A stretch of 64,000 bases of DNA from Haloferula rosea (GTDB lineage: Bacteria; Verrucomicrobiota; Verrucomicrobiia; Verrucomicrobiales; Akkermansiaceae): assembly GCF_016595525.1 (NCBI RefSeq), contig NZ_JAENII010000008.1, forward strand, positions 1-64,000, read 5' to 3'. Below the pieces are notes generated by a model. That model was given only the letters and a program-made list of their open reading frames with translations. It had not been told where the DNA came from and made no database searches. Shown in pieces: positions 805 to 11,595 of this stretch. Position 1 is the stretch's first letter. Every line of letters starts with the position of its first letter. The position numbers were made by a program, and so were the translations under genes.

Positions 805-3066
805 TTACTTAGCATTCCCGATGTTTGTTGTGTCATCTGGATGCACAGTTCCATCAACACGCCCTTTCCTGTCAGCCCGAGGCTTCCGGCTGAGATCGAG
901 CTCCACCATATCACCGTCTGGATTAACTACAAAACCAAGCTCAAGACCCAATCCCTTCCCGAAGTGGTAGTCTTCGACCGAAAAGTAACGCGCCATTCTC
1001 ATATTGATATCGTAAACATGCCAGTCCACATCGACCACATCAGGATTGTAAGGAGGACGCTGATGCTTCGGCGATCGCGGACCCGGCTGAGAGTGGTAAT
1101 AGCCAATGACGTGGCACTGATCATCTCCATTACGATAATTCCGAAACTTCTCAAACTCTGATTCCTCAGGATTGTCAGCATTGTGGAGCCTAACACTGCG
1201 CTCCTCCTTATCGGTGATTGCCGGAGTGTATAGGTAATATAGGTCGAAACGGACTGTTGTCGTCTTCTGACAGTCATCGCTGGTATGCTTCCGCATATCA
1301 TATTCCGACTCATCGGCGTTCCTGCATGAACAATCAACACGTGATTTCTCGCTACGGCTCCAGCAGCGCAGAATGAAGCCGCCGTATTCCCAATGGTTCT
1401 TTTTACTGAGAGGAAATATCTCCTTCATAGCGGCAACGGCTGCGCTCCTCGCAGTATCATATTTTGTCTGAAGGGCTACGAGACCGAGCAAATCCCACCG
1501 ATTCACCCCATCATTCCCGACGAATCCGTATAAGTTGACCCCGCCGCGTTCCCCGATTGGATCCCTGGATGGCCACCTTCCCGTCACCGGGTCGTAGTAT
1601 CTGTAGCCATAATAGCTGAATCCAGTTTCCTCGTCTCGATACTTCGTGCTGAACTGCCAAGGGTTGTCGTCGACGAGGACGCCAGTGGATTCGCGCACGT
1701 TGCCGAAGGCATCGTAACGGTAGATCCCTCCGTTGTTCGCCTGATTGGTCAGGCGGGCGGGGTTGCCATTCCCGTCATAGTGGTAGTAGAGGGCGTGGCT
1801 ACCGGTGACGACGCGTGCCAGCAGACCGCCCACACCACCGGCTCCCTGGAGGCTGCCACTGAGATCCTCGCCCCAGACCAAATACGCCCGCAGGATCGGG
1901 GCGTTGGTGCTCGGGGCTGCGGCATGTTCCTGAATCACGTTCCATCCGTCATAGACGAAGAGGACGGTCTCGGCAACCAGAGAACTCCCATCGTCAGCGG
2001 AGGTTGCATGGGTGGTGGTTTCCTTGGCCACGCGGCGCCCGAGGGCGTCGTAGTGGTAGTAGGCGATGGGGTTCCCGGCCGAATCCCTCACCTCCCGGAG
2101 CCGATTCCAGGCATCCCAGACGAAGCTGCGCGTGCCGTCACTGGTCAGATTGCCGTCCGCATCGTGGTTTCGGGTCCCCTGCGGCGGGGTGGTGGGTGAG
2201 GTGATGGTGGCATACTGATTGAGGTCGTTGGGGGCATAGTTGGTATTGCCCTGCGCGACGGTCGACGAGGCTCCTTGAAGGGTCACCGCAAGACTGGTGC
2301 GGTTGCCCATGTCGTCATAGCTGTAGTCGTGGTCTTTGACGAAGGGGGCGGTGGTATTTCGGGGATCGCTCACGTCGTGGTCGACAGCTGTCAGCTGTCC
2401 GGCAGCATCGTGCTGGTAACGGTCGCCCACATTGCCCTTCCAAGCTTGGGCGATGCGCCGGGAACGCTTGTCGTAGGTATACCAGTTTCCATCCATCCAA
2501 CCTCCGTTGGTATTGCGGTGGACCCGTCCGGTGAGCCGCTTGCCTTGGTCGTAATTGGGGTCGGTGCTTGCTCCATTCTCATACTGCAGCCAATCGATAA
2601 GTCCGTCCTTGCGGCGGGTGTAGGTCGCTAGCGCGGTGGTCTGGCCGTCATCGGGGTTGTAGACGTATTGCAGCTGACCGCGCAGGTTGTAGCGATAGTC
2701 CACTTGCTCGGTGCCCCCGGGGCTGGTTGGATAGGTCAAATGCGAGAGTCGGCCGGCGTCATCGTGATCGTAGCCTACGAGGTAGCTCTGGCCCGTATGC
2801 GCCTGGGTGACGGTGGAAGGGTCTCCATTGGCGTGATACGTGGTGGTCACGGTGGCGATGCTATTATTCTGCGTCAAGGGGCGGCCGCTGTCATCGTAGG
2901 TGAAGCTGCTGTTCTCCCCTGAACCGTAGAGTCCAGGCCCGCTCCAGTTAATGGAGGTCAAGCGGTCGCGCTGGTCGTAGCCATAGGTCGCCTTTTTCAG
3001 GCTGGGGCGTGTGTGGGTGGCTTCAACTGTGATTTCCCTCCCCTCACTCTCGCCCCCAAGCTCCAC
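805..3066 (-). CDS. RHS/YD-repeat protein with C-terminal DUF4329 (JAMM-like) domain, 5'-truncated
   Basis: Residues from about 25 to 490 are YD repeats (for example YDQRDRL, YDDSGRPL, YDDMGNRTSL, YDALGRRV, YDAFGNVRES). They end in the RHS core signature RYRDEETGF-like KYRDEETGFSYYGYRYYDP, then GRWPSRDPIGERGG and NLYGFVGNDGVNRWDLLGL. The variable tip after that (about residues 520-753) contains AAVAAM, E560 in WEYGGFIL, and H658 in GYYHSQPG, followed by an Asp-rich stretch and VNPDGDMVEL. This layout matches DUF4329, a JAB/JAMM-like domain common on polymorphic toxins. The second His of the usual H-x-H is Gln (Q660). No signal peptide, Tc-type shell or plug region precedes the repeats, and the first residues overlap the end of the upstream hydantoinase-like gene by 23 bases. 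The gene is therefore likely a displaced 3' part of a longer RHS gene. Whether it is expressed from its ATG is uncertain. Confidence 0.75.
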   Translation of the reverse strand: MELGGESEGREITVEATHTRPSLKKATYGYDQRDRLTSINWSGPGLYGSGENSSFTYDDSGRPLTQNNSIATVTTTYHANGDPSTVTQAHTGQSYLVGYDHDDAGRLSHLTYPTSPGGTEQVDYRYNLRGQLQYVYNPDDGQTTALATYTRRKDGLIDWLQYENGASTDPNYDQGKRLTGRVHRNTNGGWMDGNWYTYDKRSRRIAQAWKGNVGDRYQHDAAGQLTAVDHDVSDPRNTTAPFVKDHDYSYDDMGNRTSLAVTLQGASSTVAQGNTNYAPNDLNQYATITSPTTPPQGTRNHDADGNLTSDGTRSFVWDAWNRLREVRDSAGNPIAYYHYDALGRRVAKETTTHATSADDGSSLVAETVLFVYDGWNVIQEHAAAPSTNAPILRAYLVWGEDLSGSLQGAGGVGGLLARVVTGSHALYYHYDGNGNPARLTNQANNGGIYRYDAFGNVRESTGVLVDDNPWQFSTKYRDEETGFSYYGYRYYDPVTGRWPSRDPIGERGGVNLYGFVGNDGVNRWDLLGLVALQTKYDTARSAAVAAMKEIFPLSKKNHWEYGGFILRCWSRSEKSRVDCSCRNADESEYDMRKHTSDDCQKTTTVRFDLYYLYTPAITDKEERSVRLHNADNPEESEFEKFRNYRNGDDQCHVIGYYHSQPGPRSPKHQRPPYNPDVVDVDWHVYDINMRMARYFSVEDYHFGKGLGLELGFVVNPDGDMVELDLSRKPRADRKGRVDGTVHPDDTTNIGNAK

Positions 3067-6000
3067 CGCCCGGCGTTTCGATCCTTACGCGTTCACCCGC
3101 CTCCGCCAGGTAGGTCACCACTCCCGGCAGTTCCACCTCGGAGCCCTCGGCATGGATCCGCGTCTGTTTCCCTCCGAGCCCATCGGCCCCACCGTCCATA
3201 CCGGATGGACACGTGGTCCTTCGTTGGGTGAGGAACGAAACCGTCACCGGCCGGAGGAATTCAATCTCGCGCACGATCCCATCACCGCCGGGATGAATCC
3301 CGGTGCCCCCCGACCCCCGACGTAACCGGTGTTGGGTGACGCGAACCGGATACCGTTGCTCCATCAACTCCGGATCCGTTAGAGCGGTATTGGTCATGTG
3401 GACATGCCTGCCGCTGCATCCGGCATGGCCCGGACCTGCACCGGAACCTCCGGCAAGGGTTTCGTAGTAGCCGAATCCATCGTCGCCAAAGAGGAAGTTG
3501 TTCATCGTCCCCGGCCCGTTCGCCGAAATTCCGAGTGCTTCGAGAAGTGTATCCGCCAGACGTTGGCTGGTTTCCACATTTCCTCCCACCACAGCAGGTG
3601 CCTGCCCAGCTGGCCGCGAGAAATCCGGATTCAGCATTCCCGCGGGAAGCACGATCTCAACCGGAGCCAGCAACCCTTCATTCAGTGGCACGTCGTCCTT
3701 CAACCACAAACGCAGGACATACAGGAGCACGCTGCGAACGATCGCCGGGGTCGCGTTCAGGTTCCCCGGGTGCTCATCCGCACTCCCGGTGAAGTCAACG
3801 AGCATCCGGCCACCGCCCGAAGTGATCCTCACCTTCAAGATCCGCCCGTCATCCAGAACTCCCTCCGCGCCACGAAGCGCGATCGGCCCTTCCAGATGAT
3901 CACGCATCAACCTCGCCGATCGCTCGACCACCTCCGAAAGACGTCTCCTCACTTCATCCGCGCCAAAACCATCCGCCAGTTTCACCAGTGCATCCCGGCC
4001 GAAATGGCAGGCTGCCAGCTGGGCTTCGGCATCAGCAAGATTGTCCTCCGGCCGTCGCGATGGATACGGCGCATCCCGTAGCAGCGCTTCCAATCGGTCC
4101 AATCGGGCCCTCCCCTTCTCGACCAGCAGCATCGGAGAAATCAGCACGCCTTCTTCCGCCAGGCAGGTGGCGGATGCCGGCATCGACCCCGGGGCCATGC
4201 CACCAAGTTCCGCATGGTGGGCGCGGTTCGCCACGTAGCCGAGCAGCTTCGCGTCGCGATCATGCACCGGGGCGATCACGGTCACATCCGGAAGATGGGA
4301 TCCTCCGGCTCCCGGATCATTCGTGATCACCACATCGCCAACCCCGAGCTCGATCCGCTGGACCACCTCCCGGACACAGACTCCCAGCGCACCCAGATGG
4401 ACCGGCACGTGAGGCGCACTCGCGACCAAGCGTCCATCGACATCCAGCAAGGCACAGGAGTAGTCCATGCGGTCCTTGACGTTGGTGGAGACCGCGGTGC
4501 GCTTCAGAGCTTCACCCATGGCATCGAGCATTCCCTCGAAGCGACTGCGGAAAAGCCCGGCAAGCACCGCATCCGGGGTGGCCGTTCCGGTTTCACGCGA
4601 TGCGCCCGACGCACGTTCCAGCCACAGGGTCTTGCGCGAACCCATTCGCATCCTCCACCCCTCGGGGATCACGCAGGTCGAGAAGCAGTCCTGGAGCAAC
4701 TCCGGCCCGTGGACGAAGGTTTCGCCAAAAGTCTCCTTCGCCACGGGTTCCAGCGTATCCTCTCCGATGACCCGCAGGGCCACCAGTTCGAGCACGCGCT
4801 CCTCCCCGACGGGATAGCCAAAGGTCTGCTGGTAGGTGCGTTTGAATGCGCCTTCGAGATCCGAGGCACTTCCGTGCATCGACTCCACGTCCAAGGCCGA
4901 CTCCTGCCCTTGGATCCGCAGCGTGGCAAGCCAGCGCATCCGCGGCGACTCGATGCCGAGCGCCCTGCCGACCTCATCCGCCAACCTGCCCCAGATGCCC
5001 TCCACGTCCGCATCATCGAGGACCTGCAGCACCTGGGAGACCGCCTGCTCCTGCCGGACTGCCCGCTCCAGACCCCACGCACTCAGCAAGCCCGCATCGC
5101 CGGGGACGAGGACATGATCCAGCTCGAGTTTCTCCGCAATCGCCGTCGCATGTTGAGGGCCGGCTCCGCCGAAGGCCAACAAGGCATGCCCGCCCATGTC
5201 CACACCCTCCCGGATGCTGACCGACCGAATCGCCTCGGCCATGGTCTCCACCGCGATGTCCCGCAGCCCCCGGAGCAGACCACCGGGATCCGCCACCACC
5301 TCACCCGTTGATTCCATCTCCGCGATGAGCTCGGCGAACTTCGCTTCCGACGCCCTTCGATCCAGTGGAATGCCCGCCTTGTCAGGATCCATCAAGCCAA
5401 GCAGGAGATTCACATCGGTCAGCGTCAGAGGGCCGCCCCGTCCATAGCACGCCGGTCCTGGATCCGACCCCGCACTCTCCGGACCCACCTCCAACTGGCC
5501 GTGTCGCCACTGACAGATCGATCCTCCTCCGGCCGCGACTGTCTCGATCTTCAGCGCCGGAGCCACCACGCGGGCAGGCCCGATCTGCTGCTCGCTTCGA
5601 TACTGAAAGGATCCATCCAGACGCGCCACATCCGTGCTCGTACCCCCCATGTCAAAGGTCAGCAATCGAGGGAATCCGGCCGCGCGACCGATCTCCGCGG
5701 CTCCGATCAAGCCACCTGCCGGGCCGGAAAGGAGCGAATCCTTCGGGTGATAGCGATCCGGAGGCACGAGCCCCCCGGCGCTGGTCATGAACCCGAGCCC
5801 CGCGCCATCGAGCGGACCGGAAACCCGCGCCACGAAATGCCGCATGATCGGCGCCAGAAACGCATCGGCCACCACCGTCTCGGTCCGCGGAAGAAGACGG
5901 ATCAACGGTGCCGTCGCCGAGGAAAGCGTGACCTCGGAAAATCCCTCCGCCCGCAACCATTCTCCGACCTGATCCTCGTGGCGCGATGATCGCCAGCCGT

Positions 6001-6664
6001 GCATCAACGAAACCGCCGCGACTTCACATCCATCCTCAAGCGCTTGCCGGGCCTGCCGCCTGACCTGCAATTCATCGAGTGGATCCAGTTCATCCCCACC
6101 CGGATCCAACCTACCACGAATGCCGTAGACGCCGGTCGCCAGATGCTCATGAGCCGGTTGCTGCAACGAGAACAGATCCACCCGCCTCTGGTCGCGGATC
6201 TCCAACAGATCCTCCATCCCCTCGGAAACGAACAAGGCCACCCTGGCTCCTTTCCCCTCCAACAAGGCATTCGTCCCGCGCGTCGTCGCCACCCGCATGT
6301 CCAGTTCGGGAAATTCCTCACCCGGTCCGACACCGACCAGAATCCGCGCCGCCACGACCGGGGCCTCTTCGCCGCCGTCGAGCTCCACCAACCCCTTGCC
6401 ACCTCCATGCAGGACGCGTCCTCCTTCATGCCCGGTCACCTCGACACCATCGGCACTTTTCCACCCGACCAACAGGCCATCGGGCCAGCCCACCGCCGCG
6501 CCCTTCAAATCCATCCAACCCTCCGCATCCGGCGCACCGAGCTCCACCCTCAACCTGCCATCAGACAGGATCTTGCAGCGGGATTCCCTGCCATCAGGGC
6601 TCCGTGCCCAGGCATCGGTGAAGGTTCCTCCGGTATCCACCCGGACCTGCCAGCATCCACTCAT
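3044..6664 (-). CDS. Fused HyuA-HyuB hydantoinase / 5-oxoprolinase-type enzyme
   Basis: This 1,206-residue protein fuses both subunits of the ATP-dependent hydantoinase/5-oxoprolinase family. The N-terminal half (about 1-670) is HyuA-like, with the actin-type phosphate motif VDTGGTFTDAW at residues 9-19 and a second motif LTFDMGGTSTDVA near residue 330. The C-terminal half (from about 695) is HyuB-like, starting near LFRSRFEGMLDAMGEA, with ITNDPGAGGSHLPDVTV and ending in the usual IETPGGGAWG. Members hydrolyse 5-oxoproline or hydantoin rings with ATP, and the length equals eukaryotic-type 5-oxoprolinases. The exact substrate cannot be read from sequence. I chose the ATG at 6664 because it overlaps the upstream stop as TGATG; a start 33 bases earlier adds an unlikely leader. 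It appears translationally coupled to an MglA-like gene, an unusual partner. Confidence 0.88.
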   Translation of the reverse strand: MSGCWQVRVDTGGTFTDAWARSPDGRESRCKILSDGRLRVELGAPDAEGWMDLKGAAVGWPDGLLVGWKSADGVEVTGHEGGRVLHGGGKGLVELDGGEEAPVVAARILVGVGPGEEFPELDMRVATTRGTNALLEGKGARVALFVSEGMEDLLEIRDQRRVDLFSLQQPAHEHLATGVYGIRGRLDPGGDELDPLDELQVRRQARQALEDGCEVAAVSLMHGWRSSRHEDQVGEWLRAEGFSEVTLSSATAPLIRLLPRTETVVADAFLAPIMRHFVARVSGPLDGAGLGFMTSAGGLVPPDRYHPKDSLLSGPAGGLIGAAEIGRAAGFPRLLTFDMGGTSTDVARLDGSFQYRSEQQIGPARVVAPALKIETVAAGGGSICQWRHGQLEVGPESAGSDPGPACYGRGGPLTLTDVNLLLGLMDPDKAGIPLDRRASEAKFAELIAEMESTGEVVADPGGLLRGLRDIAVETMAEAIRSVSIREGVDMGGHALLAFGGAGPQHATAIAEKLELDHVLVPGDAGLLSAWGLERAVRQEQAVSQVLQVLDDADVEGIWGRLADEVGRALGIESPRMRWLATLRIQGQESALDVESMHGSASDLEGAFKRTYQQTFGYPVGEERVLELVALRVIGEDTLEPVAKETFGETFVHGPELLQDCFSTCVIPEGWRMRMGSRKTLWLERASGASRETGTATPDAVLAGLFRSRFEGMLDAMGEALKRTAVSTNVKDRMDYSCALLDVDGRLVASAPHVPVHLGALGVCVREVVQRIELGVGDVVITNDPGAGGSHLPDVTVIAPVHDRDAKLLGYVANRAHHAELGGMAPGSMPASATCLAEEGVLISPMLLVEKGRARLDRLEALLRDAPYPSRRPEDNLADAEAQLAACHFGRDALVKLADGFGADEVRRRLSEVVERSARLMRDHLEGPIALRGAEGVLDDGRILKVRITSGGGRMLVDFTGSADEHPGNLNATPAIVRSVLLYVLRLWLKDDVPLNEGLLAPVEIVLPAGMLNPDFSRPAGQAPAVVGGNVETSQRLADTLLEALGISANGPGTMNNFLFGDDGFGYYETLAGGSGAGPGHAGCSGRHVHMTNTALTDPELMEQRYPVRVTQHRLRRGSGGTGIHPGGDGIVREIEFLRPVTVSFLTQRRTTCPSGMDGGADGLGGKQTRIHAEGSEVELPGVVTYLAEAGERVRIETPGGGAWGRE

Positions 6665-7224
6665 CAGGTCAGCCGTCCCGCCCCTGCCTGACGCCACAGG
6701 GCATTGAACACCGCGCCTTCGCCATGCGGGCGACTCGCCGAAGTCACCACGCGCGCCACCTCTTCACCCGGCGGCAGACCAAGCCAACCATCCATACGCG
6801 ACGGCTGGAAACCCGGGTGGCCGTCGCATCGATGGTACTGGAGAACCAGTGGCTTCGAGCGGAGATCGTAGCCACCCCGCTGCGCACTCTCCGCCACGCG
6901 CTGGAGCGACCTCCAGCCCTCCTCCAGATGCTCATGACGCACGTCGAACACAAAGATCACCGCATCGGATTGACGAACCAACAGATCCTGTCCGGCCACA
7001 TACGGACACGCATCATCGAGACAACGCATCAGGAGAGTGCGGCGATCACCCGCCTCGTTGGGCGCGGCGATTTCCGCCGACCACACTCTCAACTCGCCGA
7101 CATAGTGCGCCAGCGGTTCGGCGTTGAACCGCCGACAAACCGCCTCAAGCACTTCCTGGCGGCCGTGACCAAGAGCACCTGCCACGGTCACCCGGAATGG
7201 GCGTGCATCCGTGGAGCTGCTCAT
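6664..7224 (-). CDS. MglA-like small GTPase-fold protein with degenerate nucleotide-binding motifs
   Basis: The 186-residue protein follows the MglA/Ras-like pattern: a beta-strand and loop at the N-terminus (VTVAGALGHGRQEVL, residues 12-26), then SDAVIFVFDVRHEHLEEG, then KPLVLQYHRCDG, which aligns with MglA 'LPLVLQYNKRD'. The P-loop GxxxxGK[ST] is changed to G-ALGH-G-R-Q (R22, Q23), and the base-specificity motif NKxD is changed to HRCD. Both changes argue against normal GTP binding, so it is probably a pseudo-GTPase. It lies 17 bp downstream of a roadblock-domain gene, the same pairing as MglA with MglB, where the roadblock protein binds the GTPase. Its stop overlaps the hydantoinase-type start. 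MglA family assignment is by motif recognition; loss of GTPase activity is inference. Confidence 0.65.
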   Translation of the reverse strand: MSSSTDARPFRVTVAGALGHGRQEVLEAVCRRFNAEPLAHYVGELRVWSAEIAAPNEAGDRRTLLMRCLDDACPYVAGQDLLVRQSDAVIFVFDVRHEHLEEGWRSLQRVAESAQRGGYDLRSKPLVLQYHRCDGHPGFQPSRMDGWLGLPPGEEVARVVTSASRPHGEGAVFNALWRQAGAGRLT

Positions 7225-7241
7225 GACCGGCGAAGATGCGT

Positions 7242-8030
7242 CTACATCCGACCGATTTCACGGGCGGCAATCATCAGGGTCTCGCGAACCCCGGGTGCGA
7301 AGCCTCCATCGGTCTGGACAGCCAGCATGACCGATCCTTCACGGATGAAGTCGATCGGAGCGCTACCACAATAAAGTTTCACCTGACCCCCACCGAAGCC
7401 AAGACCACCAAGGACGCGCTTGATGCCTTCCACGGCTCCGATGTCCGCGGCCGAAACACGACCCAGCTGGCGGATGCCTGGAAGGGCGCCTGCACGCTGA
7501 AGGATTTCGCTTTCGGAAAGCTCGCGGTCCACGCCGAAAATCGCGCGCAACTCGAGCTGCTTGATCGTGGAGGAATCGGATTCAGTCATGTCGATGGATG
7601 ATGAAGAGGGTGCGGGTGAAGCCGGAGCCGGCGTCACCGGCTCCACGGCAGGAGCGGGTTCCACCTTCTCAGGTGCCTGGCCGAAGGGAGAATCCTCCTT
7701 CTTGGCCGGCTCGGGGGAACCCCCAAACGGGCTCGAGGCCGGCTCTGCGGATTTCGGTGATTCATCGACACCGAATGGAGAAGTCGAAGCGGCGGGTGGC
7801 TCGAAACCGAAAGGTGACTTGCCCTGCCCCGAAGCGAATGGGCTACTCGATTCAGCCTCCGGCTTCAGGCGCGTTGCCTCCTCGTCATCACCTGCCACGG
7901 CAAATGGCGACTTGGGGGCCTCGGCCGGGGCGGCAAACGGGTTCTTCGCGGACTCGTCGACCGCGAACGGGCTCTTCGGAGGAGAGGCAAAGCCTTCCTG
8001 CGGTTCAAAAATTCCTTTTTCTTTGCTCAT
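7242..8030 (-). CDS. Roadblock/LC7 (MglB-like) protein with N-terminal SPF-repeat disordered tail
   Basis: Residues 1-150 are low-complexity, rich in Pro, Ser, Ala and Glu, and carry eight copies of a [SN]PF[AG] motif at about residues 20, 30, 41, 63, 72, 84, 100 and 114. The C-terminal ~105 residues look like a roadblock/LC7 fold, ending with LAVQTDGGFAPGVRETL and AAREIGR, close to MglB-type C-termini. Roadblock proteins regulate or scaffold MglA-type GTPases, and an MglA-like gene follows 17 bp downstream. I chose the ATG at 8030 (MSKEKGIFEPQEGF); a GTG 33 bases upstream is possible but gives a basic leader unlike the rest. The repeated linear motif suggests a multivalent docking tail. The protein also contains several KSPF sites with Ser before Pro, possible phosphorylation targets; that is speculative. 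Confidence 0.65.
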   Translation of the reverse strand: MSKEKGIFEPQEGFASPPKSPFAVDESAKNPFAAPAEAPKSPFAVAGDDEEATRLKPEAESSSPFASGQGKSPFGFEPPAASTSPFGVDESPKSAEPASSPFGGSPEPAKKEDSPFGQAPEKVEPAPAVEPVTPAPASPAPSSSSIDMTESDSSTIKQLELRAIFGVDRELSESEILQRAGALPGIRQLGRVSAADIGAVEGIKRVLGGLGFGGGQVKLYCGSAPIDFIREGSVMLAVQTDGGFAPGVRETLMIAAREIGRM

Positions 8031-8149: not shown

Positions 8150-8695
8150 TCATCCCTCAACGAGACGTTTCAGTTTCCGCTTCACACTCACTTTGGCGGC
8201 CGGGGACACGCGATCGATGAAAAGCACCCCGTTGAGGTGATCCGTTTCGTGCTGGATCGCCCGCGAAAGCAAGCCATCGGTCTCAATCTCCAGAACCCTT
8301 CCGTCGAGTTGGGGAAGCTTCGCCTTCACCACGGCGGGTCGACGGACGTCCGCGCGAATCTCGGAAATGCTCAGGCACCCTTCGGTGTCCTTCTCGCGTT
8401 CCTTCCCGAATTCCAGTTCCGGGTTGATGAAGACGAGCGGCATGATGGATGCCAGGTCGGCGTCTTTACCGTCCACCTTGAGAAAGGAAATGCACTCCGG
8501 GTCGTGCGACACATCGACCACGGCCAAGCGGATCGCCTTCCCGATCTGCGGAGCCGCCAGCCCGACACCTTGGGCGTCGTACATGGTCTCGATCATGTCA
8601 TCGACCAACTTGCGCAGTTCGTCGTCCACCTCTTCCACCTTCCCGCAGCGCTCGCGCAGCACGGGGTCACCATATTGGACAATATCGAGAATCAT
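8150..8695 (-). CDS. def: Peptide deformylase
   Basis: The 181-residue product removes the formyl group from the N-terminal Met of nascent proteins in the cytoplasm, using a bound metal. All three family motifs are present: GVGLAAPQ (residues 43-50), EGCLS (105-109, metal-ligand Cys107) and QHETDH (148-153, the HExxH metal site with catalytic Glu150). Length is normal. An insertion of about ten residues around 65-85 (HDPECISFLKVDGKDADL) lies between motifs 1 and 2. The ATG at 8695 overlaps the stop of the upstream ExbD gene (ATGA), so it is likely translated from the TonB-ExbB-ExbD message. Confidence 0.97.
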   Translation of the reverse strand: MILDIVQYGDPVLRERCGKVEEVDDELRKLVDDMIETMYDAQGVGLAAPQIGKAIRLAVVDVSHDPECISFLKVDGKDADLASIMPLVFINPELEFGKEREKDTEGCLSISEIRADVRRPAVVKAKLPQLDGRVLEIETDGLLSRAIQHETDHLNGVLFIDRVSPAAKVSVKRKLKRLVEG

Positions 8696-9129
8696 TCGTT
8701 TTCTGCGTTTTCAGCCGGCAGCTGGATCCGTGCCGGCACGTCCTTAATCTCAATCCCCGCCTCGGTCAACGCATCCCAGACCGCAACCAACTGCTCGAGG
8801 GACACCTCCTTGTCCGCTTCCAGCTCGAGCTTCCTGCCCGGGTTCTCCTTCACGTAGGCGGAGAGGTAAGCCTTGAGCAACTTGATGTTCGGAACCGTTA
8901 GATCGTCGAGACGGATGGCTCCGTCGCGATCGACCGCAAGGATGGAGCGGGCGTCCGCAATCGTATCCGACGGCACTTCACGCACCGTCGGCAACTCGAT
9001 CTTGAGCACCTCGCGCTTCTTCTTGAACTCCGAAGAGACGATGAAAAAGATCAGGACGATGAACAGAATGTCGATCATCGAAACGATCGGCAACTGCCGC
9101 GGGCGCTGAACTGGACGTTCGAATTGCAT
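8692..9129 (-). CDS. exbD: ExbD/TolR-family biopolymer transport protein
   Basis: The 145-residue protein has the ExbD layout: a short cytoplasmic N-terminus, one membrane segment (about residues 14-33, IVSMIDILFIVLIFFIV) with the conserved proton-path Asp20, and a periplasmic domain ending in an Ala/Glu-rich tail. With ExbB it forms the inner-membrane motor that uses proton motive force to energise TonB. It follows exbB by 9 bp and overlaps def by 4 bases. The order TonB-like, ExbB, ExbD, Def on one strand suggests a single operon. Confidence 0.92.
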   Translation of the reverse strand: MQFERPVQRPRQLPIVSMIDILFIVLIFFIVSSEFKKKREVLKIELPTVREVPSDTIADARSILAVDRDGAIRLDDLTVPNIKLLKAYLSAYVKENPGRKLELEADKEVSLEQLVAVWDALTEAGIEIKDVPARIQLPAENAENE

Positions 9130-9138
9130 CGTCTGACC

Positions 9139-9846
9139 CTACTTGTCGGATGCTTTTGAACTCCCGAACAAGCCTTCAGCCCGCGGGGCTTGCTCGCACA
9201 CATGGCCCATCTTCGTCAGCAGCACCTCAAGCACCGCCGCGTAGGTTTCGATCTTCCGCTGGAAATATCCCTGCGCGATGATCGAAGGTACGGCAATCGC
9301 CATACCAACGATGGTCGTCTTGAGCGCCCGACCGATACCACCGGTAATCATCATCCAATCGGCATCGGACTCGATCCCCGAGAAGACCACCACCAACCCG
9401 GAGGCCGTCCCAAGCAACCCGAGCAGCGGCGCCACGCTGGTCACCACATCAATTGCAGTCATCCCCGCATGCAGGCGGACGATCTCCGCACGAGCCATCG
9501 ATTGCACGGCTTCGGCGATGTCGGTCTGGGATCGACCACGCTGGCTGACTGCCACCGAGCAGAGACGCGCCAGCGTACTTTCGCCACGATCGAACTCCGC
9601 GAGCACCGGCTCGAAATTCCCATCCCTCACCCGCTGGTCGAACTGCTCGACCTCCGCCTCGAGCGAATCAGGAAGCACCCTTGATTTCCTCAGGGTCAGC
9701 ACCTTGAACATGATGGCAGCGAGACCGACCACCGAGGTGATCCCGAGAAGGATCATGAAGATGCCACCTTCCTCGAAAAACAGCCCGATCTGCTCGACCA
9801 ATCCGGGTTCCGCATCCGCGGCTGCTAGAATCATTGAGTTCCACAT
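9139..9846 (-). CDS. exbB: ExbB/TolQ/MotA-family proton channel protein
   Basis: The 235-residue product has three predicted membrane segments, near 28-50, 130-152 and 165-192, the ExbB topology. The MotA/TolQ/ExbB signature is visible as VTSVAPLLGLLGTASGLVVVF followed by GGIGRALKTTIVGMAIAVPS (split here into two parts). It would partner the ExbD encoded directly downstream and the TonB-like protein upstream. The N-terminus MWNSMILAAADAEPG could serve as a short, non-cleaved leader. The gap to the upstream gene is 24 bp. Confidence 0.93.
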   Translation of the reverse strand: MWNSMILAAADAEPGLVEQIGLFFEEGGIFMILLGITSVVGLAAIMFKVLTLRKSRVLPDSLEAEVEQFDQRVRDGNFEPVLAEFDRGESTLARLCSVAVSQRGRSQTDIAEAVQSMARAEIVRLHAGMTAIDVVTSVAPLLGLLGTASGLVVVFSGIESDADWMMITGGIGRALKTTIVGMAIAVPSIIAQGYFQRKIETYAAVLEVLLTKMGHVCEQAPRAEGLFGSSKASDK

Positions 9847-9870: not shown

Positions 9871-11004
9871 CTAAAAGATGAAGTTGTAAAGGAGTTCCAG
9901 CGGCTCGCCCTGCAATTCGCGGCGCACGTCGTCCGGCATCTTTGGCAGGTTTGCCTCCCGAATTGCCTTGTGGGTAAAACCTTTCTGGATCGCACCGATG
10001 CCGAATTCCTCGACCGTGCCAACGGATCGGACCCGACCATTCTCATCCAACACGACCTGAATCCGGATCACGCCCGGGGTGATCAGATCGCGGTGCTGGA
10101 TCACCCGCCTCTGCCAAGCCTGCTCAATCGCCCGCCCGATCGCCGCATGGTAGCGCCCGAGCGCCCCCTCCTTCACATCCAGCGATGCCGTTCCCCGTCG
10201 AGAGATCGACCCCTTCAGCAAGGTCCTCCGTTGGTATCCGCGGAAGCCAGGTTCATTCGTCGCCTGAGGTTTCGCCGGCTTGGGTTGTTCCTCCACCTCT
10301 TCCTCGACCTTCGCGATCTCCTCTTCCGCCCTCTCCTCGGGCGACGCCTTCGGCTCTTCCTCCGCCATGTCAGGAGAAATCGGGCGATCCACCGACAACG
10401 GCCCTTCGGCCAGGCGCTGCCTCTCCCCACTCGCCTCCTCATCCGGAGACTCGGTTTCCGTGCCGCTCGGCGTCACCGGCTCGACCGGTTCAGTGACGGT
10501 CTCGGTGACCTCCTCAGGCATCGGGCTCGGTTCCTCCTCTCCGGGCGTGGCAGCGCGGTCATGCTCCAGCACCCCGTCCTGATACTCACTCACCGTGGTC
10601 TCGATCTCGCCAGCTCTCGGTTCGATCCCCTCCTGACTGGGAAGGTCCTCCATCCCCTCGACCGGATCCGCCTCGCTCGTCGCCACCGTATCCCGCTCGC
10701 CAATGAAGGCAGGATCCTCCGGGATCTCCGCCGTCTGATCATCCGAGGTGCGCGCAAATGCCTTCGGCCGTTCTGCCGCCGGCGGTTCGACCTTTTCCGA
10801 GGTCACCGGCTGGATCGTGATCGACCTCGACTCGGGCTCGGCCGCTTGCTCGGACGGAGTGGGAGGCTGAAAAATCAGCGTCTGAATGGCCATGAACGCC
10901 AGGAAGAGCACCACGCCCACATTGATTCCCAACGACAACAACAAGGCCGTGAGCCACAGCCTTGCATCATCAGATCGGGAGGAATGGATTACGCCTGCGG
11001 TCAT
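9871..11004 (-). CDS. TonB-family energy transducer, long acidic linker
   Basis: This 377-residue protein has a single N-terminal membrane anchor (about residues 17-43, LTALLLSLGINVGVVLFLAF), a long Pro/Glu-rich linker (about 48-250) and a C-terminal domain (about 275-377) containing YHAAIGRAIEQAWQRRV and VVLDENGRVRSVG, typical of TonB/TolA-type C-termini. TonB transmits ExbBD energy to outer-membrane receptors. The linker is strongly acidic (many Glu runs such as EERAEEEIAKVEEEVEEQ) where classical TonB has Pro-Glu/Pro-Lys repeats. The gene heads an apparent operon with exbB, exbD and def. No TonB-dependent receptor is encoded in the window, so its client is unknown. A TolA-like role is an alternative. 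Confidence 0.8.
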   Translation of the reverse strand: MTAGVIHSSRSDDARLWLTALLLSLGINVGVVLFLAFMAIQTLIFQPPTPSEQAAEPESRSITIQPVTSEKVEPPAAERPKAFARTSDDQTAEIPEDPAFIGERDTVATSEADPVEGMEDLPSQEGIEPRAGEIETTVSEYQDGVLEHDRAATPGEEEPSPMPEEVTETVTEPVEPVTPSGTETESPDEEASGERQRLAEGPLSVDRPISPDMAEEEPKASPEERAEEEIAKVEEEVEEQPKPAKPQATNEPGFRGYQRRTLLKGSISRRGTASLDVKEGALGRYHAAIGRAIEQAWQRRVIQHRDLITPGVIRIQVVLDENGRVRSVGTVEEFGIGAIQKGFTHKAIREANLPKMPDDVRRELQGEPLELLYNFIF

Positions 11005-11145: not shown

Positions 11146-11595
11146 CTACCAGTCGATGGTATTGTCCGGAATGTGACCCTCGGCCGTATTCAACGAACAG
11201 CTCATGTAGAGCGTGCCCATGTCCGGGATCTGGTTCCCACCGAGCGTATAGGTTCCCCCGGCCGGACATTTCGGCAATTCCTCGAAGAACAGTCCCGTGC
11301 CGATCACTTGGGCCTCGAGATTGAGCGCCGTCTGCCCCGGGTTGAGGCCCGACATGTTGCCATACCCCCTCACCGCCTTCTGGACGGCTTGCAGGTTCAT
11401 GATGCAACCCGAACGGTCCGACCCTCGTTTGAAGGCTTTCGCGCCGGTCATCAGAAGGGTCGCAAACAGGAGAAGAAACAGAATGACGACGGCGAGCTCG
11501 ATCAGGGTCATGCCGGGCATCGCACGGAAAGCAAGCGGACGCCGGGACACGCTCGAAACACGTTGGAGCCCCCGCGAGCGGGTGACGGATTTCAT
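11146..11595 (-). CDS. Type II/IV pseudopilin-like protein (prepilin N-terminal methylation motif)
   Basis: Residues 25-45 read AMPGMTLIELAVVILFLLLF, a class III prepilin signal: cleavage after Gly28, Met29 as new N-terminus, and the conserved Glu at mature position 5, followed by a hydrophobic helix. The leader of 28 residues is long and basic, so a later start is possible, although no other Met precedes the motif except Met26. The rest (about 115 residues) has two Cys and Gly/Asn-rich strands, with the pattern CPAGGTYTLGG often seen in small Verrucomicrobia pseudopilins. It stands alone; no secretion ATPase or other pilin gene is near. Confidence 0.75.
   Translation of the reverse strand: MKSVTRSRGLQRVSSVSRRPLAFRAMPGMTLIELAVVILFLLLFATLLMTGAKAFKRGSDRSGCIMNLQAVQKAVRGYGNMSGLNPGQTALNLEAQVIGTGLFFEELPKCPAGGTYTLGGNQIPDMGTLYMSCSLNTAEGHIPDNTIDW

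Follow-up and report, generated by a model that had tools for sequence, protein, structure and literature searches.

The region analyzed, hereafter referred to as the window, comprises 64,000 nucleotides of a Haloferula rosea contig (NCBI RefSeq assembly GCF_016595525.1, NZ_JAENII010000008.1, positions 1 to 64,000; phylum Verrucomicrobiota, family Akkermansiaceae). On its reverse strand, two genes separated by 17 bases encode a tailed roadblock-like protein of 262 amino acids (P0001; 7242..8030, with its ATG at 8030) and an MglA-like protein of 186 amino acids (P0002; 6664..7224, identified as an open reading frame, by profile and by fold). The positions and reading frames assigned to both genes in an earlier prediction, which had been made from the DNA letters alone (the original prediction), were found to be correct. 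MglA and MglB constitute a bacterial cell-polarity switch, and the pair studied here is best read as a lineage-specific derivative of MglA-MglB. Either it serves as a scaffold that works independently of nucleotides, or it is a relic undergoing decay. A description of this pair was not found among the matches listed in searches of open-licence PMC papers.

P0002 is an MglA homologue at the level of profile and fold. The single sequence matched Myxococcus xanthus MglA in the PDB (E-value 4e-5), and the canonical verrucomicrobial MglA profile (A3) retrieved P0002 in a whole-genome search with an E-value of 2e-9. Alignment of the P0002 family alignment (A6, consisting of 22 loci and the window, with L130 excluded) to A3 using hhalign resulted in an E-value of 1e-36, with A6 including one canonical row, L158. 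The AlphaFold model of P0002 achieved a predicted local distance difference test score (pLDDT) of 91 and a predicted template modeling score (pTM) of 0.88. Ranks 1 to 14 of the Foldseek results obtained with this model were all MglA (best E-value 6e-13), as were the 11 best PDB entries in VIA, with Z values between 21.6 and 19.2, followed by the next entry at 17.2. The Ras-like MglA fold and the sequence homology expected of the MglA family were thus found in P0002.

The nucleotide motifs of this fold were altered in P0002. At the P-loop (G1), where GxxxxGK[ST] is expected, the protein reads G16-ALGHGR-Q23-E24 (GALGHGRQE, residues 16-24; 7153..7179, reverse strand), and at G4, HRCD (H131 to D134; 6823..6834, reverse strand) occupies the place of [NT]KxD. 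The stretch aligned to G3 is CLDDA, representing neither TVPGQ, described for Group 1 MglA proteins, nor GTPGQ, described for Groups 2-5, according to the available excerpt of PMC4316618, from which the Group 1 signature used below was also taken. In the column of the Group 1 arginine finger, an Arg is present and the G2 Thr is replaced by Val, as deduced from one alignment in which the placement is uncertain. An MglA fold combined with the P-loop GALGHGRQ(E) and with HRCD, as originally predicted, was therefore borne out by sequence, fold and profile evidence. Featuring a G-protein fold with lost nucleotide motifs, P0002 resembles the pseudo-GTPases represented by the dynein light intermediate chain (LIC) and CENP-M, and it probably does not bind GTP, judging from these motifs.

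P0001 consists of a long tail and a C-terminal roadblock-like domain. [SN]PF motifs start at residues 20, 30, 41, 63, 72, 84, 100, and 114, with A or G as the next residue in all eight, and are embedded in a Pro/Ser-rich tail segment predicted with low confidence (residues 20-117; 7680..7973, reverse strand). In 100,000 shuffles of the 157-residue tail, none reached eight motifs (mean 0.07 and maximum 3 for [SN]PF[AG]; mean 0.34 and maximum 5 for [SN]PF), placing the predicted eight-fold multivalent tail far above chance. AlphaFold block means ranged from 47 to 66 for residues 1-150, while the domain (residues 158-262; 7245..7559, reverse strand) was well predicted, and the VIA rows listed for it comprised roadblock, MglB, Rag/Ragulator and profilin structures as well as one MON1A/CCZ1 entry. 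P0001 had matches in 27 of the 57 relatives searched (own genome counted), and a profile match to longer tailed proteins outside the Akkermansiaceae was obtained with an E-value of 6e-20. Three distant tailed homologues matched Robl_LC7 below the cut-off at their C-terminal domain (E-values 0.005-0.29), and a fourth, L177, showed a partial match (E-value 0.14). The domain is about 20 residues shorter in the family than in the longer relatives outside it, perhaps with one strand gone. Structural and profile matches thus support, at a moderate level, the roadblock-like identity proposed for P0001. Pfam and NCBIfam scans of P0001 and P0002 resulted in no roadblock or GTPase match at E-values of up to 10; the sole matches for the pair were Nucleoporin_FG (E-value 0.012) and a chance-level RdgC match. 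An identity of P0001 as an FG nucleoporin was rejected as an effect of composition, the match achieving 16.9 bits versus a cut-off of 32.2.

Profile searches were performed among relatives. Within the Akkermansiaceae, the tailed roadblock domain was detected in 63 of 117 genomes, and the canonical MglA profile matched 29, two of which (G019 and G123, with E-values near 0.001 in long open reading frames) were set aside as marginal. All 27 non-marginal genomes also contained the tailed roadblock domain, with both genes side by side by coordinates, which supports the pairing of P0001 and P0002 beyond the window. The profile misses G014, G017, and G027, which possess an MglA-like gene. One of the 27 genomes, G313, carries a further, canonical-looking MglA (L195, G313b) on a separate contig (contig 21, 3433 bases), possibly representing contamination. 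At the level of loci rather than genomes, 66 named loci were assigned to the family; every retrieved locus but L158 was included, and their taxonomy was taken as given. Of the 64 family loci with enough downstream sequence, 22 showed an MglA-like gene. The genome (G) and locus (L) sets overlap, and L132 and L135 are additional copies, devoid of a tail, from genomes that the count already includes. For the roadblock alignment, L122, L130, L132-L135, and L158 were excluded; of the 60 loci left, 55 went into profile A5. Second copies of the roadblock-like domain were also observed in L083 (8507-9253; G006) and L084 (near 8272-9111; G013); neither [SN]PF[AGS] motifs in these copies nor an MglA-like match in the surrounding region examined were found.

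Motif erosion was found to be widespread among the family members. In a table of 44 proteins, all 10 rows from outside the family keep GxxxxGK[ST] and NKRD, whereas among the 34 family rows [NT]KxD is kept in none and GxxxxGK[ST] in two; incomplete sequences (L145 and L127) were excluded from motif tables and trees, and G267, G281, and G313b from this table. The P-loop lysine is gone in 8 of the 34 family proteins, P0002 among them. On the tree, the lysine state must have changed three times or more. With a canonical ancestor these changes would be losses, although their number is unsure owing to long branches (L143, L120, and L141/L146). One family thus features an intact P-loop, a lost Ser/Thr, a lost Lys or no MglA-like gene at all beside the same tailed roadblock gene, and this spectrum makes a stepwise transition from switch to scaffold, or from switch to loss, testable by comparison of orthologues.

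Outside the family, the canonical form of the pair was encountered. A tailed roadblock-like protein is located beside MglA in 9 of 22 order-level genomes, these nine being all the matched ones; the roadblock proteins are longer than those of the family, and their MglA partners are canonical (GK[ST] and NKRD). GxxxxGK[ST] and NKRD were kept in all 15 MglA proteins examined outside the family, and 13 of these also show both elements of the Group 1 signature, TVPGQ and DRT, the exceptions being L158 and G052, the latter scored as canonical by G1 and G4 despite an unusual G3 and G2. The available excerpt of PMC4316618 places Verrucomicrobia under Group 5 and not Group 1; L088 (8444-9064) and L174 (4364-5026) are among the canonical MglA proteins with the Group 1 signature. 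Furthermore, a Robl_LC7 match (E-value ≤1) directly follows MglA, as judged from coordinates, in seven of the nine order-level genomes, exceeding the cut-off in G036, G043, G049, and G052 and remaining below it in G041, G042, and G054. An MglB candidate was detected at 12 of 15 MglA-bearing loci, three of the candidates being found by construction, as the profile was built from three of those loci, and three being weak (E-values between 2e-4 and 0.016). Across the phylum, the tailed roadblock profile matched only 10 of 193 genomes, indicating that the arrangement is not common. Among the class- and phylum-level loci, L176 and L177 matched weakly and carry one of the two genes on each strand, L177 additionally featuring a helix-hairpin-helix domain.

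The tails of the outside proteins differ in their SPF-motif content, 19 motifs being present in G049 and 10 in each of G041 and G048; other tails contain few or none. Long tailed roadblock proteins in L081 (7141-9738), L088 (9082-11682), and L174 (5034-6953) appear to feature repeats resembling 'LPL..IL..LP' upstream of the roadblock domain; these repeats were judged by eye, and no Pfam match was obtained over the segments. An intact P-loop at this position without SPF repeats, which the original prediction had named as speaking against itself, does occur in distant relatives, e.g., G036 and L174. Likewise, its suggestion of a module not matching the known one did not hold, as relatives outside the family possess a canonical MglA next to a tailed roadblock protein, with an MglB-like gene following in most cases. 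These canonical relatives indicate that the window's pair derives from the known module and has undergone degradation, and an ancient pseudo-GTPase was rejected on the same grounds. The canonical state is probably ancestral, given its presence in other families and classes.

An MglB-type gene was not detected in the window's own genome, where no Robl_LC7 match was obtained at an E-value of ≤1. The cut-off of Robl_LC7 was exceeded in none of the 117 family genomes; two weaker matches below it (G012 and G296) lie in longer frames, and in G012 the match and the roadblock gene are on different contigs. Directly beside the roadblock gene, no match (E-value ≤1) was found in 13 family genomes, and the MglB profile had no match at an E-value of ≤1 in 88 family loci, some of which are short and overlap between sets.

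Ratios of nonsynonymous to synonymous substitution rates (dN/dS) were calculated according to NG86, since YN00 was unusable for most pairs; the values are rough for the window's pairs, where synonymous sites are near saturation, and some genomes occur in more than one pair, so that the pairs lack independence. In the sister clade, mostly featuring GAADxGKLA and HRAD, dN/dS ranged between 0.08 and 0.13 for the MglA-like gene and between 0.06 and 0.28 for the roadblock domain (seven overlapping pairs), and one canonical pair showed 0.08 and 0.05, respectively. In the window's clade, values of 0.33 to 0.46 were obtained for the MglA-like gene in four pairs, a fifth not being calculable, versus 0.07 to 0.29 for the roadblock domain (five pairs). 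Motif loss and strong constraint can thus coexist, as seen in the sister clade; in the window's clade, motif loss accompanies relaxed constraint, and the MglA-like gene appears, on these rough values, to evolve fast beside a conserved roadblock domain.

Our preferred reading, for which we estimate a probability of roughly 0.47, is that the pair represents a derived MglA-MglB remnant, in which P0002 is a nucleotide-independent, Ras-fold partner of P0001 whose constraint has been relaxed and which may be heading to loss. P0002 would no longer bind or cycle GTP and would instead serve as a fixed Ras-fold partner, presumably in direct contact with the roadblock domain of P0001, which in turn may recruit clients via its repeated SPF motifs. 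The output would thereby become independent of the GTP switch. The window's lineage would possibly be losing P0002, with the roadblock domain remaining conserved. A retained surface on P0002 is suggested by the sister-clade consensus, of which 34 of 67 positions are retained in the C-terminal half versus 25 of 66 in the N-terminal half; the same bias was observed in three of five clade relatives (L128, G002, and L093), but not in L092 and L103.

Several observations weigh against this reading. The roadblock assignment of P0001 depends on moderate fold scores, with VIA Z values of ≤7.7 over 93 residues (a range the tool calls common) and no Foldseek match at an E-value of ≤0.001 (best 0.029), and on sub-threshold Pfam matches in distant homologues, P0001 itself not matching Robl_LC7 at E-values of up to 10. 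The Pfam test for MglB is moderately sensitive, exceeding the cut-off in four of nine genomes outside the family. We infer the loss of nucleotide binding as well as the contact between P0001 and P0002, and the clients of the SPF motifs are putative. Furthermore, P0002 retains the same share of conserved residues within the motifs (4 of 16) and outside them (11 of 42; G052 being omitted from the canonical set), meaning that motif residues were not preferentially lost and that general divergence accounts for their loss no less well than selective loss. At 42 of the 64 family loci, an MglA-like gene was not detected beside the roadblock gene, indicating that P0001 can fulfil its role, whatever this may be, in the absence of the partner; the tailed roadblock protein accordingly persists without the GTPase in many lineages.

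The last two observations agree well with P0002 being a non-functional relic, the GTPase having become useless after the loss of MglB and its gene decaying towards deletion, so that only P0001 would matter. This explanation appears tentatively possible, and the equal loss of motif and other residues shifted our estimate slightly towards it and away from a scaffold. It is also in line with the rapid divergence of the MglA-like gene within the clade of the window, where the window and four relatives share 33-42% identity in the MglA-like protein versus 55-81% in the roadblock domain (49% versus 90% between G014 and G017). Broken-looking copies exist as well: L130 is truncated, L127 (the same gene as G281) is without the P-loop half, L145 keeps an intact P-loop (GSAGAGKSG) with the middle of the protein gone, and G267 contains one in-frame TGA, its first half being absent from the open frame. 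However, the open reading frame in the window is intact, its fold is confidently predicted and dN/dS is below 1; the altered sister-clade protein is constrained as strongly as canonical MglA, and the uneven consensus retention described above, from which L092 and L103 deviate, also speaks against a relic.

The P-loop lysine, in turn, is kept in 26 of the 34 family proteins, so some relatives may bind nucleotide, which also speaks against a uniformly nucleotide-independent partner. P0002 itself could still be nucleotide-dependent with altered chemistry, by means of another ligand, Mg-independent binding or Arg22 replacing the lysine. The G4 lysine is often missing in MglA Groups 2 and 3, and CvnD9 nevertheless has GTPase activity, as reported in the available excerpt of PMC4316618. 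Since G1, G3, and G4 all deviate in P0002, such an altered switch is considered very unlikely.

Compared to the MglA-MglB systems of M. xanthus and Thermus thermophilus (PDB 3t12, 6h5b, and 6izw), the pair shares the small Ras-like MglA fold and the adjoining roadblock-like protein. P0002 differs in being without G1, G3, and G4 and without a detected MglB-type gene in its genome, and P0001 in its SPF-motif tail and shorter domain. P0002 is homologous to MglA by profile and fold, and the relatives outside the family are mostly of the Group 1 type. Conservons of Actinobacteria (CvnB/CvnD; PMC4316618, excerpt) likewise combine a roadblock protein with an MglA-family GTPase featuring a non-standard G4; however, CvnD9 is an active GTPase, and conservons additionally comprise a histidine kinase and another conserved protein, neither of which was seen beside P0001 and P0002. 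The closest working analogy for P0002 is the fungal dynein LIC. According to PMC4359372, human LIC1 binds guanine nucleotides and the motifs are present in metazoa, whereas they are diverged in fungi, whose LIC binds no nucleotide, and the Ras-like fold bridges to a cargo-binding region. The likeness comprises the Ras-like fold, the diverged motifs and the bridging role, which is assigned to P0002 by analogy only. In contrast to P0002, the LIC is eukaryotic with an unrelated partner, and its cargo-binding region is part of the LIC itself (according to the title of PMC4359372), whereas the tail is located on P0001.

Upstream of P0001, also on the reverse strand, genes for a peptide deformylase (8150..8695), an ExbD/TolR-like protein (exbD; 8692..9129) and an ExbB/TolQ-like protein (exbB; 9139..9846) were identified. 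Further upstream of exbB, a TonB-like open reading frame (9871-11004; weak, E-value 0.064) and a short one with weak type II pseudopilin likeness (11146-11595; E-value 0.13) were observed, both recurring at family loci. P0001 and P0002 could serve these ExbB-ExbD-TonB-like genes or the deformylase and be unrelated to polarity. The order TonB-ExbB-ExbD-deformylase-P0001 recurs at family loci, with deformylase upstream at 50 of 62 and ExbD at 28 of 58 loci with enough sequence. Among these 58 loci, which are related to each other, ExbD and the MglA-like gene occur together at 16, ExbD alone at 12 and the MglA-like gene alone at 4. Weak ExbB-like matches were also found near the canonical pair in three of nine order-level regions and, in a separate search, in a fourth. 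Nevertheless, neither ExbD nor the MglA-like gene accompanies P0001 at 26 of the 58 loci. The nine order-level regions yielded no deformylase match next to the canonical pair, peptide deformylase belongs to the housekeeping genes, and a common function cannot be deduced from gene order alone. This explanation is therefore regarded as decidedly unlikely, and the ExbB-ExbD link to the pair represents a lead only.

A connection of this kind was put forward for M. xanthus, where the ExbB/ExbD-type AglRQS proteins were proposed to be linked to the cytoskeleton via AglZ and MglA (PMC3169522, excerpt). In a bolder version of the preferred reading, the GTP switch would have been converted in the Akkermansiaceae into a nucleotide-independent scaffold, with the MglA fold selected as a fixed adaptor and the SPF roadblock protein gathering clients, possibly including ExbB-ExbD. 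We consider this conversion doubtful; if true, bacteria would possess an equivalent of the dynein LIC pseudo-GTPase, with several stages of nucleotide-site loss represented among its members.

Downstream of P0002, a fused hydantoinase A/B (5-oxoprolinase-like; 3044..6664, reverse strand) is encoded, its ATG overlapping the P0002 stop. The TGATG shared by both genes, from which a coupling of the pair to this enzyme had been predicted, is present; its part in the module did not receive support, since the hydantoinase, located ≤900 bases downstream of the roadblock gene at 20 of 64 family loci, occurs more often without (14 loci) than with (6 loci) the MglA-like gene. It was therefore rejected as the leading candidate for a functional partner, and the coupling is probably incidental, the gene probably lying outside the module. 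The open reading frame adjoining the hydantoinase gene (805-3066) contains YD/RHS-like repeats, named by sequence appearance only.

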